NCBI GenBank assembly: GCA_017560905.1
Contig: JAFZEA010000008.1
Location: 1 to 60,489 of the forward strand
Direction of reading: 5' to 3'
Source of the DNA: Clostridia bacterium
GTDB taxonomy: Bacteria > Bacillota > Clostridia > Oscillospirales > QAKW01
Length of the DNA stretch: 60,489 nt
In this document: positions 7,547 to 59,757 of the stretch, piece after piece
Layout: each line of letters starts with the position of its first letter
Numbering within the stretch: the stretch's first letter is position 1
The notes under the pieces: generated by a model
Databases searched by the model: none
What the model saw: only the letters and a program-made list of their open reading frames with translations
What the model was told of the DNA's origin: nothing
Program-made: the position numbers and the translations under genes

Positions 7547-7581
7547 AAACTCTGTTATAATTATGATATGGAGTGAATACA

Positions 7582-8316
7582 ATGTCCGGACATTCTAAAT
7601 GGAAAAACATTATGCACAAAAAGGGTAAGACCGACGCACAGCGCGCCAAAGTCTTTACCAAAATGGCCAAAGAAATTATGGTAGTGGTCAAAGAGGGCGG
7701 AGCTGACCCCGCCTCCAACTCCCGTCTGGCCGACGTCATTGCCAAAGCCAAGGCCGCCAACGTTCCCAACGACAACATTGAGCGTGCCATCAAAAAGGGT
7801 GCCGGTGCCGAGGGCGGCGCCGACTATATCAACCTCACCTATGAGGGCTACGGTCCCGGCGGTGTGGCTGTGGTCGTGGAATGTCTGACCGACAACAAAA
7901 ACCGTACCGCAGGCAACATCCGCCACTGGTTTGACAAATTCGGCGGCAATCTGGGCGCCACAGGCAGTGTGGCCTGGCAATTCAAGACCTACGGTCAGCT
8001 CATTATTGAAAAAGCCGACGGCATCGATGAGGACGAGCTGATGATGCTGGCGCTGGACAGCGGTGCCGATGACTTTACCGCTGAGGAAGAAGCATTTGAG
8101 ATCATTTGCGCTCCCGAAAACTTCCACGCCCTGCGTGAAGCACTGGAGGGTGAAGGCTATACCTTCCTGTCTGCCGAAGTCACCCGCATCCCCGACAACG
8201 AGGTCACCCTGACCGACGAAAAGGACATCAAGTTCATGGGCCTGCTCATCGAAAATCTCGAAGACGATGATGACGTTCAGAACATCTATCATAACGCCGC
8301 AAACGAGGATTTGTAG
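7582..8316 (+). CDS. yebC: YebC/PmpR family regulatory protein (TACO1-like)
   Basis: 244 residues, starting MSGHSKWKNIMHKKGKTDAQRAK, the hallmark N-terminus of the family. Later segments include DNIERAIKKGAG, YEGYGPGGVAVVVECLTDNKNRT and RHWFDKFGGNLGATGSVAW. Family members are described as transcriptional regulators and, more recently, as factors that relieve ribosome stalling at proline-rich stretches. I took the ATG at 7582 because it gives the conserved N-terminus and has GGAGTG upstream. An in-frame GTG three codons earlier is less likely. Its stop codon is followed almost at once by the hairpin array. Confidence 0.95.
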   Translation: MSGHSKWKNIMHKKGKTDAQRAKVFTKMAKEIMVVVKEGGADPASNSRLADVIAKAKAANVPNDNIERAIKKGAGAEGGADYINLTYEGYGPGGVAVVVECLTDNKNRTAGNIRHWFDKFGGNLGATGSVAWQFKTYGQLIIEKADGIDEDELMMLALDSGADDFTAEEEAFEIICAPENFHALREALEGEGYTFLSAEVTRIPDNEVTLTDEKDIKFMGLLIENLEDDDDVQNIYHNAANEDL

Positions 8317-8333
8317 AAATCAAAAAATATTTA

Positions 8334-8636
8334 TTGCCCGAGGGCAAACATAAAAAAGAAAAGCGACCGTAAATATTCGTGCAAAGCGAAAGCGTCCCCC
8401 AAGAGGCACACTCCGTAAGGAAGTGTGCCTCAGTTTTATTCGCCAAAGGCGAGTTGTATTGCTTCGCAGTGATATTCGGCTACCGCCGAGTGTTATTCGC
8501 TTCGCGAGTTTAGGGGCGAATAAAATATCACTAAAACCGTCAGGTTTTAATATCACTTTCCTTTTAAAAATATCTCGCCATAGGCGAGGATTTTCAAAAG
8601 AAAATATCACTGTGAGACCTGTCTCACAATATCACT
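8334..8636. repeat. Hairpin array with AATATCACT joints
   Basis: Noncoding string of about ten short hairpins. They include TTGCCC/GGGCAA (8334-8347), a 10-bp stem 8403-8412/8422-8431, CGCC-aaa-GGCG (8441-8451), TCGGC/GCCGA (8476-8489), AAAACC-gtca-GGTTTT (8533-8548), CGCC-ata-GGCG (8577-8586), ATTTTC/GAAAAT (8590-8605) and TGTGAGA-cctg-TCTCACA (8611-8628). The word AATATCACT occurs exactly at 8524, 8549, 8603 and 8628, and its reverse complement AGTGATATT at 8468. The left joints are thus complementary to the right ones. No gene is visible. Function is unknown. Confidence 0.8.
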
Positions 8637-8687
8637 TATTATTTTTTTCTTTGAGATAGGTAAAATTTTAAGGTATGTAACCCACTA

Positions 8688-8893
8688 TGACACTTTCAAA
8701 CAGAAAGTGTCAATTTTTATATAAAAAGAAAATTGGGAGAACACTTCTTTACGAAGTGTCCCCCAAAAAGTAACCATTTATTTTCGGTCAGGGATAGCCT
8801 TTTTTAAAACCATGCCACTTTCAAAAAACAGAAAGTGGCATTTTTTCTTTATAAAAGAGAACGGAGACTGCTTCTTTACGAAGCGTCTCCGTT
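8688..8893. terminator. Tandem two-hairpin terminator modules
   Basis: Two similar modules follow each other. Module 1 has TGACACTTTC/GAAAGTGTCA (8688-8712) then ACACTTC-tttac-GAAGTGT (8741-8759). Module 2 has TGCCACTTTC/GAAAGTGGCA (8813-8840, followed by TTTTTTCTTT) then AACGGAGAC...GTCTCCGTT with GCTTC-tttac-GAAGC inside (8860-8893). The last hairpin, read on the minus strand, is followed by CTCTTTTAT and should terminate ldh. The first hairpins, read on the plus strand, have T-runs and could terminate yebC. Stem changes between the modules (GACAC to GCCAC) are compensated on both arms. Confidence 0.75.
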
Positions 8894-8920
8894 CATATGT
8901 AAAAACAAAATACAAAAGCC

Positions 8921-9865
8921 TTAAATTTTGAGGCTCTTTATAACTTCTTTGAGAGTGTTGGCGCTCTTTTGCAAGGAGATAATTTCTTCATCATTTAAGG
9001 GCGTCAACACCTTGGCAACGGCACCCTCCTTGCCGATCACGTTAAGAGTAGACAGGCACACGTCGTTGATGCCGTACTCGCCGTGCAGCATAGTGGAAAC
9101 CGTCATAGTGGTGTCAATACCGTCCAGAATACATTTGCAGATATGACAAACCGAAGAGCTGACCGCATAATAAGTAGCACCCTTGCGCTCGATCACACTG
9201 GCACCACTGCGGCGGACATATTCCTCGATCTCCGCAAAATTTATTTCGGGATAACTGCGGATCGCTCCGCCCAAAGACTCTCTGTACTGACCGATGGGTA
9301 TATTGGAAATATTGGCCAGCGACCACGGGATAAACGAAGAATCCCCGTGCTCACCCATAACGTAGGCGTGCACATTTTTTTGATTGATATTGTAATATTG
9401 GCTCAGACGAGTGCGCAGTCTGGCGGTATCCAAAATGGTACCGGAACCGATGATCTGATGTTCGGGAAGCCCGGAGTGCTTATAGAAGGTGTAGGTCAGT
9501 ATATCCACGGGATTGCTGACGATGACATAAACCGCCGTGGGGGCGTACTGCAAGATTTTAGGGATGATTTCCCTGGTAATATCGACGTTGGTCTGCGCCA
9601 GATCCAGACGGCTCTGACCGGGCTTACGTGCCATACCGGAGCAGATAACGACAATCTGCGAACCCGTGGCATCCTGATAGCTGCCCGCATTTACTGTGGT
9701 CGATGTACTGAAAGGTGTACCTTGCTCTATGTCCATAGCCTCGCCCTTGGCGCGCTCGGCATTGACATCAATCATAACGAGTTCAGTGGCCAGTCCCGTA
9801 ACAGACATAGTATAAGCGATCGTAGATCCGACGGACCCTGTGCCGATAATGGTGATCTTGGGCAT
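8921..9865 (-). CDS. ldh: L-lactate dehydrogenase
   Basis: 314 residues. It reduces pyruvate to L-lactate with NADH, the last step of lactate fermentation. The NAD-binding GTGSVGS is at the N-terminus. GMARKPGQSRLDL has the glutamine that selects pyruvate; malate dehydrogenases have arginine there. NPVDILTY carries the catalytic-site aspartate-containing loop, and GEHGDSSF the proton-donor histidine. I chose the ATG at 9865 (MPKITIIGTG), which has GAGAGGA upstream. An in-frame start at 9916 would lie close to the promoter. Transcribed alone from the promoter at 9901-9929. Confidence 0.95.
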   Translation of the reverse strand: MPKITIIGTGSVGSTIAYTMSVTGLATELVMIDVNAERAKGEAMDIEQGTPFSTSTTVNAGSYQDATGSQIVVICSGMARKPGQSRLDLAQTNVDITREIIPKILQYAPTAVYVIVSNPVDILTYTFYKHSGLPEHQIIGSGTILDTARLRTRLSQYYNINQKNVHAYVMGEHGDSSFIPWSLANISNIPIGQYRESLGGAIRSYPEINFAEIEEYVRRSGASVIERKGATYYAVSSSVCHICKCILDGIDTTMTVSTMLHGEYGINDVCLSTLNVIGKEGAVAKVLTPLNDEEIISLQKSANTLKEVIKSLKI

Positions 9866-9900
9866 AGTCTTTTTCCTCTCTTTATCAACATTTCTCAACA

Positions 9901-9929
9901 ATTTTACCACAAGCACAACATTGTTGCAA
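9901..9929 (-). promoter_or_regulatory. ldh promoter
   Basis: On the minus strand TTGCAA (9924-9929) and TAAAAT (9901-9906) have a 17-base spacer. The predicted start site lies about 30 bases before the ATG. No catabolite-response element could be recognised with confidence. Confidence 0.75.
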
Positions 9930-51253: not shown

Positions 51254-51607
51254 TCATTTTCTATTTTCTTTTGCAGTTTTAATTGAAGCAATCAGTAAAA
51301 TTCTGATAGTAGAGCAGGTTTTGTTGATTTTCTTATATGTTGATTCATCTATATAGGCGGTTTTATGTAGCATTTCAAGCCATTTGCCCGTTTCACTTGC
51401 TTCTTTTAAAGCGATTTCAAGTTTAGCAATAAAATCAGCACGACTATGACCATATTTGCTCTCGGCAATGTTCGCACAAACGCTTGTGGCACTTCTGCCA
51501 ATTTGATTTGAAATGATAGTTTCTTTTTTATGTCGCAGTTCTTTTACCAAATTCAGAGCATCAACAGATAATTGCATTGACAAATCGGAAAGTTTATCTT
51601 CTTTCAT
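51254..51607 (-). CDS. Four-helix-bundle protein (S23/IVP-type)
   Basis: 117 residues starting at the ATG at 51607 with GAGGTGAT upstream. An in-frame ATG at 51676 would place the start inside the hairpin array. The protein is all helical: LVKELRHKKETIISNQIGRSATSV, ANIAESKYGHSRADFIAKLEIALKEASET and WLEMLHKTAYIDE are the core of the family first seen in 23S rRNA intervening sequences and related to the Avd accessory protein of diversity-generating retroelements. No reverse transcriptase or variable repeat is nearby. Its promoter region is a hairpin array (51657-51819), then two tRNA genes. The combination suggests a small nucleic-acid-binding protein acting on the adjacent structure (inference). 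Confidence 0.9.
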   Translation of the reverse strand: MKEDKLSDLSMQLSVDALNLVKELRHKKETIISNQIGRSATSVCANIAESKYGHSRADFIAKLEIALKEASETGKWLEMLHKTAYIDESTYKKINKTCSTIRILLIASIKTAKENRK

Positions 51608-51656
51608 TTCTATCACCTCAGGCTTGTTATACCATACGTTTGCGTGAAGCACAATA

Positions 51657-51819
51657 ACGTTTGCCGAAGGCAACACTGTTTATGCGAAGCATAACACTGT
51701 TTGCGATTTGTCGCAACTTCGTTTTGTGTCCGCTTGTGCCATCAACGATGTTCTCGCTTTTGCTCGAAATGATGTTTACAACTAAAGTTGCAAAACAATG
51801 TTGTGTCCTGCGGACACAA
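51657..51819. repeat. Hairpin array upstream of the four-helix-bundle gene
   Basis: Hairpins with mostly three- to four-base loops: TTGCC-gaa-GGCAA (51661-51673), TTATGC-gaa-GCATAA (51680-51694), TTGCGA-tttg-TCGCAA (51701-51716), CAACT-aa-AGTTG (51779-51790) and TTGTGTCC-tgc-GGACACAA (51801-51819). A lone half, TTTGTGTCC, is at 51723-51731. CACTGT joins the first three hairpins (51674-51679, 51695-51700), and ATGTT recurs at the joints of the right half. It lies between the four-helix gene start and the tRNA-Tyr gene, within the presumed leader of the four-helix gene. Confidence 0.8.
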
Positions 51820-51822
51820 ACA

Positions 51823-51870
51823 CCACCAAACAAAAAACCGACCCTATTGGGTCGGTTTTTTGTTTGGTGG
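51823..51870. terminator. 22-bp inverted repeat at the tRNA 3' end
   Basis: Arms 51823-51844 and 51849-51870 are perfectly complementary with a TATT loop. The inner part (ACCGACCC/GGGTCGGT plus T-run) is a standard terminator for the tRNAs on the minus strand. The outer part (CCACCAAAC/GTTTGGTGG) mirrors the encoded CCA end of the tRNA itself, making the stem longer than needed and competing with the tRNA acceptor end. Confidence 0.8.
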
Positions 51871-58200: not shown

Positions 58201-59757
58201 GGAAAGATCTATCAGCCCGGTGGATCCTACGACCCAAATGTCAAATACAGGTTTTTTATCGGCGGATGCAACAATGGTGTTGCCCGTAATGGTGAGAGGG
58301 GCACCGTCAGCAAAATAGCCGTTGCCAGTATCGACGAAGCCAACCTCTGAGCGAGAGGTAACTTCTACAGCCTCAGCATAGTTGTTCTCAATGTTAACGC
58401 CAACTTTTATAGGATTACTCGCTTTGGAACCTTGCCGATAAGCACAGAAGTAGTATGTATAACCGCGGACAAAGTTGTCCTCAATGGTGATCTGTGCATC
58501 GGAGTAAGCACTGAACTGCGCATTGTGAATACCAAAAACGTTGCTCACAGCCTCATAGTCGAAGGTACAGTTCCGGACTACAGCGTTGAAGTCATTTCTG
58601 TAATCGCCGAGGAATGCAATATCACTCACCGCAGCAGCGGAGGGCGCGAAGTCGAGTTCAAGACCATTAGCACCTGCGCCGATGGAGTTGATGTTGTTAA
58701 TAACAACGTTCTCCATCAGAATATCGTTACCCTGCAGAATGTTCTCGCTAGCGATTTCGGTCTCCTCCACGTTACTACCGTCCATATAAGAGTTGGTCAG
58801 ATGGAACACGGTGACAACGCGGTTTGTATTATTGTTGCCACCGATGCTAAACATTACGTCGTTGTCAATGTTGTCGAGACTGAAATAAACATTATTCATA
58901 TACATGGCGCTAAGGTATGTGTAACTTTTGTTCGTCACAACGTCCTGATGCAGCTTGGCTTCGCCACTCAGAGCAATACCATCCATACGCCATACTCCAT
59001 CCAGCGGGAGCCGGATGGTATCAGTAAATACCATTTCGGTTTCGGGATCGGCACTTCTGTCGTTCATCAGGGTGGTATCACCTACGACACCGGCAGAGGG
59101 GCTTACACCTGCCTGAGGACCAAAGAAGTTTACGTTGGTGCAATCAGCCTGTGTACAATCGGGTGTGTCAACCCCTGCGGGCCAATTATAGTCGGTTTCC
59201 TTAGCACTAGTGCTGGTAGCATGGGTCATCTCGCCGGGGAACAGCAGGACATACCAGTTGTCGGGAGTAGAATGACGGATATCCTCCATCATATCGGCCC
59301 AACCGGTATAAGTGCCGGCGTCGGTCACCACATTACCACCTAAATCGGTGGTGTCAGCGTACTGCTCGGCACCGTGAGCGTTTACACCCCACTGCAAGAG
59401 GTAAACGTCGCCGTTACCCCAAGTCTCGCCGTCGCCGTACTCGGCGAGGAAGTAGTCGCCTTCAGCGTAGCCAAGGTCCTCAGTCCAGTTAAGGTTGAAG
59501 GCCTTGAAATTTTCGCCGGGCAGACGAATGGTCTTGCCGGCATACTCAGATACATCGAATCCTGTTCCATCTTCCAGCTCGATATAGCCGTCTTCAGGAA
59601 CTATAACTGTGGTAGCAGCATTCAGCTCTTCGTATGCTGCTGTTCTGTCAACAGCAGTTTCTGCTGCCGACACGGGAAGAACGATACCGGTAAGCATACC
59701 TACACACATCAGTACGCTCAGCAGCAGGCTCAACCCACGTTTGAAGCTTTGTCTCAT
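52276..59757 (-). CDS. 2493-residue secreted beta-helix repeat protein
   Basis: Signal peptide (about residues 1-31, cleavage likely after VSA). The remainder is four large related units of about 545-590 residues. Each contains a recurring segment near residues 214, 760, 1350 and 1904 (GPQAGVSP, GPKFGVDP, GPQAGVAA, GAQSGISA). Each is preceded by a hydrophobic strand ending in FPG-, MPG- or AKE-type sequence and followed by DGI(A/T)-type strands and Asn-rich turns (NNT, NNKAV, ITNNTL), typical of right-handed parallel beta-helices. No SLH, sortase or peptidase domain is visible, so anchoring is unclear. Strong promoter and GGAG. Probably an adhesin-like or glycan-active surface protein. Confidence 0.88.
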   Translation of the reverse strand: MRQSFKRGLSLLLSVLMCVGMLTGIVLPVSAAETAVDRTAAYEELNAATTVIVPEDGYIELEDGTGFDVSEYAGKTIRLPGENFKAFNLNWTEDLGYAEGDYFLAEYGDGETWGNGDVYLLQWGVNAHGAEQYADTTDLGGNVVTDAGTYTGWADMMEDIRHSTPDNWYVLLFPGEMTHATSTSAKETDYNWPAGVDTPDCTQADCTNVNFFGPQAGVSPSAGVVGDTTLMNDRSADPETEMVFTDTIRLPLDGVWRMDGIALSGEAKLHQDVVTNKSYTYLSAMYMNNVYFSLDNIDNDVMFSIGGNNNTNRVVTVFHLTNSYMDGSNVEETEIASENILQGNDILMENVVINNINSIGAGANGLELDFAPSAAAVSDIAFLGDYRNDFNAVVRNCTFDYEAVSNVFGIHNAQFSAYSDAQITIEDNFVRGYTYYFCAYRQGSKASNPIKVGVNIENNYAEAVEVTSRSEVGFVDTGNGYFADGAPLTITGNTIVASADKKPVFDIWVVGSTGLIDLSANLFMSHDGQIRMPRTNELALRPTSKPSVLNDVYASDNKDAGVFDLFTVQETTQDLLVLNSLIVPVLDGYNTYYIEKFGTETVGSITVLPEDGVTYNTEDLFVFKDEGVEYLGVFSDPACTDSVATIEKGFSADGPLYVKAQYEAGNTHAIVVYSLNEPTKYLIVDPTGVGTYTFNGDTYTADNADFYVSMAKAYEAVDVPHIENALDTDPAFLEEVILLMPGTHTTTLNVKDSVAIVGPKFGVDPTVEGSADLSADRSVDPATEAIIGKIVLDTEWSTYTFLTLSGLTANQEGGVTHTIVVDGRYGNQRHSRLNMADMYIKSSGHNLISAPKTDPEYKDYGANNCPIYVNDSYFTDSSKVNYNMYVQATYIRFKDCTIANINPKKSGVSYYPIDPAGMSVPSLTIGWFMEGCYIDGTSTAKPWFTGAYKDIPNGDLLAKGHQLYFVGNTFNNWDGAYIIQTSTNQETPDNSVGITFKNNVVKSENFADTWVIGEANNGAKHKVRDVSGNKLYNYPWPWNFKPDSNVNVDNNFYSVNNELYVLNTNDEFYGSGFEKSSIYWTDENGTETIDMSKFNLRKGEFEEIVLDKAYGDLDEFEATITAAGGRQYNVATAFAANGGTIGEITLDSNGGTLANGVYSAVSGDVLTVPVTYKGYTVTWTVDVYSSNPWENNGLGYVAGETYIDITTSALYEGRANANEGVFVAVAPDWTTFAYTDEALTDPINRATHPELMEATAPTADGDFLEMQEGTKFYAKMPTTGIVYKFTYGVTAINMYRANTSGASTVLVFPGVYNMKTGYSNEGLYASGGNSSNFGIARPGVATDKVVVLGPQAGVAAADTATGAALRDITDTANEAVFSISFYIMNGILDDNDEVIIDGIAGTGAVNFGTHHDTNASYVYSNNNTATFTFENCLIVDYKVASASNGLFSFRAQSGSVGTDITKNTAKMHMILNINSTYLQADPTDTTWVNLGKVNTDEIHIDDSAIIINKNDRTEDLVGFYINPTTGYNNASKHDISYTCENSYLNMPSNYLYGVYHDGTENITAETRNKIEITFNNNKAVDCGIDPAAGNNTRDPLYSSFSAGAENMAITEITFTNNEVTASSYPTASDFGGVIDAGSGEYRSVDISGNVFVGYGVKSVLFGGMSANVDVSDNIYKDLDGTFIAPKLGKVTMSDVILSDDFSIRASDYRPIKYVTADPLSFDNDGTEVYSDISDGNIALIDYTDDLTVSEINEKTEFGSDNAYIYSFANMDGSVVSETIQPGDIFKMVVAHKNLNRTVTYTVGVAGQLRGSVNVNETPLAGKQFFDPAVKNHFDGLNYAKTVNINGADTLVNFVVGENIFGTIAAVPVVDNERHIYLFAKEYAGVSESIGDSTSSGIHNIFYGAQSGISAVADTNVDGVADAMNPARADLSKETVFYNVSLNIDYQNSVTIDGVTFAGESVVTDTGTARTGVVDKFILINCSTDLARPIEQHEENGQPFGFKTTVRSEAEIHDNYLVMTADSVGHMFVGRHIEDMVMTNNYVEVGAAASAVYVSPASSDGTSNIENDFGVVVSGNSIVGGAVNLADLNTTTPVVLNASIDNNHIVATEGDLYGIIVDTVAATNMEGSVISITNNTLETAEGCETVNGFLRIAGLADVVTILGNTFINTDTAPVKYAIINETDVAIVAAGNIFDGFRQTYGLTEHDGTGIAVRANGSAVPVVLTDGDVTSTIIYPDGTSYKANEDNSDQFSIIDAPLSGSSVADTENLLITDISTASDYYKFNTAKGMMIRAAVVDGENTVYYYNGFPLTGETTTVTAVLTQGDGTVIGDTYTVTIVRAPIGVDILDENCRVEDETGAGYTKPFSTYWEGRIVSTNGNDISDLLAKTNFKITDYGMFYGNTAEAVTDEACAAYVATGDSKTVATYSIGGKTVGQKESYENNATGLDSVNLIYSLRMHNVGYGVSRYGRMYLTYEVSGVSHTVYSDVVTLVSEAE

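Follow-up and report, generated by a model that had tools for sequence, protein, structure and literature searches.

A hairpin-spaced joint array in a Clostridia bacterium, probably a gene-less copy of a mobile element linked to PF05635 (S23-type) proteins

Results

The array between yebC and ldh

The stretch analysed here, referred to as the window, comprises 60,489 nucleotides (nt) of contig JAFZEA010000008.1 from a Clostridia bacterium of the order Oscillospirales (assembly GCA_017560905.1). Between two convergent genes, which we take to be yebC (7573-8316, + strand) and a lactate dehydrogenase gene, ldh (8921-9916, - strand), it exhibits an intergenic array (8403-8636) comprising four left joints resembling AGTKATATT and four right joints, with a hairpin in every gap (Table 1). 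The initial annotation had placed a block of hairpins at 8334-8636, punctuated by AATATCACT. A pattern search retrieved the exact joints that it listed, at 8524, 8549, 8603 and 8628 on the + strand and, as the reverse complement, at 8468; three near-variants in the left half (AGTTTTATT, AGTTGTATT and AGTGTTATT) had been overlooked. The array itself was correctly recognised, but its extent was not, as it continues to about 8775 and is followed by a partial second tail at 8807-8894. The proposed string of hairpins, with variable stems, conserved joints and halves in inverse orientation (left joints on the - strand, right joints on the + strand), agrees with our results, and the conservation of joints over stems also holds across relatives when the copies are placed side by side. 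The array region folds at -121.3 kcal/mol, with a z score of -7.9 relative to shuffles, and comprises seven terminator-like sites over both strands, compared with 0.6 expected. In the whole window, AATATCACT and its reverse complement occur six times, whereas 0.33 occurrences are expected and none of 100 shuffles reaches six; the sixth occurrence, at 58618, is probably due to chance. Unlike a CRISPR-like array, in which identical direct repeats alternate with unrelated spacers, the array has palindromic gaps and inversely oriented halves.

Table 1 Features of the window array and of a separate PF05635 element in the same window
Feature	Position	Strand	Basis or remark
Leading hairpin H0, GAGGCACACTCC..GGAAGTGTGCCTC	8403-8431	+	same hairpin in sister copies
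Gut-1 RNA match (Rfam)	8431-8501	+	42.2 bits, gathering score 50, E 1.5e-6
Left joint J1, AGTTTTATT	8432-8440	-	near-variant; consensus from relatives
P1 5' arm, TTTTATTCGCC	8434-8444	+	inverted repeat and covariation; stem recurs in other joint classes
Left hairpin 1, CGCC-AAA-GGCG	8441-8451	+	5' arm in common with P1
Left joint J2, AGTTGTATT	8452-8460	-	near-variant
Left mini-hairpin 2, GCTTCGC (other strand GCGAAGC)	8461-8467	+	invariant
Left joint J3, AGTGATATT	8468-8476	-	exact pattern match
Left hairpin 3, CGGC-TACC-GCCG	8477-8488	+	
Left joint J4, AGTGTTATT	8489-8497	-	near-variant
Left hairpin 4, CGC-TTC-GCG	8498-8506	+	
P1 3' arm, GGCGAATAAAA, element centre	8515-8525	+	inverted repeat, covariation
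Right joint R1, AATATCACT	8524-8532	+	exact
Right hairpin 1, AAAACC-GTCA-GGTTTT	8533-8548	+	GNNA loop
Right joint R2, AATATCACT	8549-8557	+	exact
Right compound hairpin 2, nested CTCGCC-ATA-GGCGAG	8558-8602	+	
Right joint R3, AATATCACT	8603-8611	+	exact
Right hairpin 3, GTGAGACCTGTCTCAC	8612-8627	+	near-identical in sister copies
Right joint R4, AATATCACT	8628-8636	+	exact
Conserved tail, hairpins 8688-8712 and 8733-8767 (reverse complement of H0 type)	8637-8775	+	terminator-like, both strands
Partial second tail copy	8807-8894	+	terminator-like hairpins toward ldh
PF05635 four-helix-bundle (IVP/S23-type) gene, separate element	51254-51607	-	PF05635 5.6e-25; solved structure 2rld matched
Hairpin array before this gene, joint class ACATCRTTT / AAYGATGT-type	51650-51850	-	after two tRNA genes and a terminator; gene and array together 51254-51860

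Dispersed copies and their relation to Gut-1 RNA

In the assembly from which the window derives (G000; 1.0 Mb, 61% complete), the window array has 18 matches and, as anticipated by the initial annotation, further dispersed copies were found in relatives. The nonamer occurs in 30 copies per strand of G000, compared with 2 per strand for a reversed control pattern. Eleven of the matched places, compared side by side, have in common H0, the joints and slot-specific hairpins such as GTGAGACCTGTCTCAC, and many of these copies also have a long tail, at the end of which stands a hairpin corresponding to the reverse complement of the H0 type. The element was found in all three genera of the host family. 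A pattern scan of GTDB genomes returned at least 115 stretches, and among the matches listed nearly all are from uncultured Clostridia of ruminant or other guts. Two side observations concern these copies. The ribosomal gene rplQ is immediately followed by an array in two genera (L018 on contig C6 of G000, L058 on contig C39 of G002), and the hairpins differ between the two. In L060 (G000) and L066 (G004), all joints have changed in concert, to AGTGAAGTT/AACTTCACT and GCGATAT/ATATCGC, as if one joint must be kept per array.

The left half of the array corresponds to Gut-1 RNA (RF01706) of Rfam, so that the earlier statement that no named class has this design is only partly right; the nearest functional relatives are the S23p-encoding intervening sequences (IVSs) discussed below. 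The Gut-1 model covers the left half only, and the window copy remains below its gathering threshold, which is passed by three sister copies in G000 (L009, 53.6; L012, 60.5; L060, 55.9) and by copies in relatives. The Gut-1 core is also contained in two IMG/VR contigs (L188 and L189), which may derive either from phages or from a host. The original description of Gut-1, based on gut metagenomes, listed it as certainly RNA and probably not cis-regulatory (PMC2864571). That listing, the Rfam label 'Gene; sRNA' (small RNA), the Gut-1 matches and the strong fold would fit a functional small noncoding RNA, of which the repeats would be gene copies. Nevertheless, Gut-1 spans one half only, and the copies differ in number, site and hairpin content. 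Judged by its sequence, Gut-1 RNA appears to be one half of a larger repeat.

The P1 stem and the polarity of the loops

A long stem formed by the joints themselves, as initially proposed, was not supported: the variable base of L2-L4 does not covary with that of R1-R4 in 62 arrays (phi at most 0.25), and no excess is observed at nested positions. The stem that is supported is P1. There is strong evidence that J1, together with the 5' arm of hairpin 1, would pair with the element centre, as the variable base pair is A-T in 50 arrays, T-A in 34, C-G in 20 and another combination in 3, i.e. Watson-Crick in 104 of 107. As both use the same 5' arm, P1 competes with the local left hairpin 1. In the other joint classes, a perfect inverted repeat of at least 10 bp is present in 79 of 82 arrays, compared with 2 of 82 shuffles, and many of these P1-type repeats span about 90-96 nt despite their differing sequences, so that P1 closes the left half at a nearly constant span. 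Joint-only classes use the arm of the terminator in front as their P1 5' arm.

The hairpin loops are polarised. In the joint class of the window array, right-half hairpins have their GNA or GNNA loops on the + strand and left-half hairpins on the - strand, and the same polarity emerges when 43 arrays from other classes are counted together (Fisher p 1.6e-9). Stem mismatches, although small in number, lean likewise, with 19 G-T and 6 A-C in the right half and 2 and 5, respectively, in the left half. This indicates that each unit comprises a hairpin and a joint and that the two halves, starting from the centre, are read outward on opposite strands. Such an arrangement would suit a DNA-level or unit-level process better than a single folded transcript. 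The covariation of P1 could be expected of an RNA; in contrast, no single transcript strand explains loops of opposite polarity in the two halves. In right-half loops such as that at 8533-8548, the third base is not limited to purines (17 of 36). In this respect, they resemble stable DNA mini-hairpins rather than the GNRA loops of RNA.

Association with PF05635 genes

With regard to protein-coding genes, the arrays are associated with PF05635 (23S_rRNA_IVP, S23), a protein that had so far been encountered chiefly in insertions within rRNA genes. A scan of the family genomes returned 20 PF05635 genes, and a hairpin or inverse-repeat array lies directly in front of nearly all of them. At the level of the order, such genes are present in 76 of 147 genomes, with up to nine per genome. 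An array was detected upstream of 83 of the 125 testable genes and, when 18 with an array on the downstream side are included, beside 101 of 125, compared with 0 of 46 control windows. This test allows one mismatch, considers both gene sides and requires each positive to exceed 20 of 20 shuffles; it replaced a stricter exact-7-mer test, which gave only 71 of 125 because gene-in-loop and degenerate arrays were missed. Among the 24 negative genes, many exhibit a clear array by eye. In the literature searched, which mostly comprised sources other than subscription journals, no publication was found that had previously described PF05635 together with inverse repeats at sites other than rRNA.

Two layouts are observed. 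In layout A, the array is followed by a promoter and then by the PF05635 gene; in layout B, the gene lies between two array halves (L193, L217, L220, L292 and others). Of 69 layout A cases, 38 have a promoter beyond the last joint (shuffled, 2; 4 inside the array), and the -35 box often starts 6-8 nt after the start of the last joint, which overlaps or abuts the box in many copies. As these arrays are located between a terminator and the next promoter, and no array promoter was identified, layout A also argues against an RNA gene, and we regard a functional small RNA as quite unlikely. The window array itself encodes no PF05635 gene; nevertheless, its AGTKATATT joint class stands directly before such a gene in L195, L196, L231, L233 and L249. 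At four further loci (L204, L308, L312 and L314), upstream of the gene, the element centre is complementary to the terminator arm of the preceding tRNA, in one case including the CCA end. The centre is therefore locus-specific, and this complementarity is possibly the trace of an insertion step.

Co-inheritance of joints and proteins

Between host families, joint similarity follows protein identity (Mantel rho 0.359; the highest value among 1000 permutations was 0.129). When mapped onto a tree of 111 proteins, the 13 joint classes, assigned to 96 rows, require 13 changes, compared with 65 for host family, which is a strong indication and not an exact count, since the tree is short (120 columns, many open forks), the classes were defined by regular expressions and the unclassed rows were left out. 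The expressions were chosen by hand because single-linkage clustering of the joints merged 64 rows into one class. The AGTKATATT clade, with an SH-aLRT support of 99%, includes two TCATAAC rows. Taken together, the gene-array association and the co-inheritance of joint and protein indicate that array and gene travel together between lineages.

Presence, absence and site preference

At the yebC site, the array is present in G000 only: its place is taken by a plain terminator in the closest relative (G001, 84% protein identity), and no array was found at this site in the other readable genomes of the family. Such variation had been suggested by the initial annotation, which had also named what would speak against its proposal, namely one known RNA conserved base by base, with no variation and no arrays elsewhere; the copies do not behave in this way. 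In the proB-proA spacer, G029 exhibits a complete gene-in-loop element that its congener G138 lacks, G175 a gene-less array of another class, and G160 an array right behind proB. L195 and L196 are near-identical elements behind different genes. The elements prefer the 3' side of same-strand genes and tRNAs: arrays of the Gut-1 core class have a same-strand gene or tRNA upstream in 93 of 118 cases (93 vs 25, p 2e-10).

This preference, the convergent arrangement of yebC and ldh and the excess of terminator-like sites on both strands could also be explained by a domesticated bidirectional terminator or 3'-end stabiliser between the two genes. However, the relatives manage at the yebC site with a plain terminator or none, and a terminator has no need of conserved joints, of P1 or of a PF05635 link. 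Such a role is unlikely to be what the array is for; terminator function may instead be a by-product through which the site becomes tolerable.

PF05635 genes beyond the order

Inverse short repeats bracket or precede, by eye, PF05635 genes on plasmids of Treponema, Bernardetia, Monoglobus, Euhalothece, Chlorohelix and Nostoc, with cyanobacterial and Chloroflexota copies among them. A 7-mer count supports L364, L366, L367, L368 and L370, whereas L363, L365 and L369 are not outstanding; this comparison of upstream and downstream sides is unsuited to L369 because both of its halves are upstream. L369, from a phage record (MT835590, a gut phage contig that may be phage or host DNA), carries a PF05635 gene with an array, and a protein scan of viral contigs gave no match. 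At the Nostoc plasmid loci L368 and L370, the genes are bracketed by the inverse heptamers GAAGTCG and AATTCGT. As a lead only, these may be related to the heptanucleotide STRR repeats of heterocystous cyanobacteria.

Discussion

Based on these observations, we consider it probable that the window array belongs to a mobile, selfish IVS/S23-type element and represents a solitary copy of its AGTKATATT class that has no gene. In its complete form, such an element would comprise left and right joint sets in inverse orientation, which in the order Oscillospirales are usually hairpin-spaced, and a gene encoding a PF05635 four-helix bundle. The protein would bind its own joint sequence, and the last joint could be an operator over the -35 box of the protein's promoter; where this joint overlaps or abuts the box, autorepression would result. 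The protein may further serve gene-less arrays, such as the window array, in trans, and the elements probably persist because settling just behind transcript ends does little harm. As to movement, our working guess, which we consider doubtful, is that host replication or recombination acts on hairpin-forming DNA under the guidance of the PF05635 protein.

Several points weigh against this interpretation. At the window locus, neither a transposition event nor a target-site duplication nor a clean empty site was seen; because relatives have a different gene beside yebC, synteny is broken there and no base-exact junction is available. The joint classes were partly assigned by hand, with 15 of 111 rows unclassed, and the co-inheritance of joint and protein would not by itself prove binding. 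Three PF05635 genes are present in G000, which is 61% complete; none was seen of the AGTKATATT class, and no gene-less array was tied to a gene of matching class in its own genome. Finally, no movement enzyme was identified, reverse transcriptase and Y1 transposase being mostly absent from the genomes examined.

This last observation bears on two alternatives. In the first, the arrays would be REP/BIME/REPIN-like repeats moved by a RAYT (Y1, HUH) transposase. Like the mosaics of enterobacteria and pseudomonads, they are modular, dispersed, intergenic and composed of inverse pairs of hairpin units, and they need a trans factor in principle. However, PF01797 was found in only 3 of 12 family genomes, in one copy each and never beside arrays, which are abundant in G001 and G002 without PF01797; the strong link is instead to PF05635. 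The arrays further differ from REP/BIME/REPIN mosaics in their long conserved joints and P1 architecture. This largely refutes the RAYT hypothesis, to which we give hardly any weight. In the second, the arrays would be retroelements mobilised via reverse transcription, and the PF05635 protein would play the part of Avd, its structural relative from diversity-generating retroelements (PMC10053308). This hypothesis is weakened by the distribution of the reverse transcriptase family PF00078, found in 8 of 31 genomes and not in the element-rich G138 (9 copies, 97% complete), G146 (8, 90%) and G025 (7, 98%). The location of the elements behind terminators, which is reminiscent of group IIC introns, counts in its favour, and overall we hold a retroelement to be very improbable.

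Among known systems, the mobile selfish element proposed here most resembles the S23p-encoding IVS of 23S rRNA, which is likewise short and selfish, is bounded by terminal inverted repeats and has short tandem repeats near the gene. Both encode a PF05635 open reading frame, which in our case is found in relatives of the window array. In Coxiella burnetii, the 23S rRNA IVS was called a selfish element and exhibits terminal inverted repeats and tandem GACAGAT heptamers before the S23p gene (PMC4990558). In contrast, the elements described here are located not in rRNA but downstream of protein and tRNA genes and within operon spacers, their joints are hairpin-spaced and many copies are gene-less. 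The window copy shares with IVSs the inverse repeats able to pair, given its inverse joint halves and the covariation of P1, but it is located between yebC and ldh and has no PF05635 gene, which is present at same-class loci such as the five named above. As it thus lacks two defining features of IVSs, 23S rRNA location and the protein, we file it as an IVS/S23 variant and not as an IVS. Miniature inverted-repeat transposable elements (MITEs) likewise have inverse ends and occur as short gene-less copies beside larger gene-bearing relatives; unlike MITEs, these arrays have no known transposase partner.

More generally, PF05635 proteins could be the sequence-specific factors of mobile elements with inverse short repeats across bacteria, each clade reading its own joint and none using a known recombinase or reverse transcriptase; in the Oscillospirales, the joints would have become hairpin-spaced and spread without the gene, Gut-1 being a fragment. 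We put this forward tentatively, as a possibility somewhat short of even. The present analysis connects the orphan Gut-1 RNA and the orphan S23 protein family as parts of a single selfish element that can be put to the test. What the 23S rRNA IVSs and the S23 protein do, and how they arose, has been debated for decades, and Gut-1 has remained an orphan RNA since 2010; the link makes both testable, as more than a dozen natural protein-joint pairs allow binding specificity, autoregulation and mobilisation in trans to be assayed. The link might also offer a reason, as a lead only, for the appearance of IVP genes in screens for repeat-array-associated genes (PMC10910872). If it is true, Gut-1, curated as an sRNA family, would be re-labelled as half of a mobile element.
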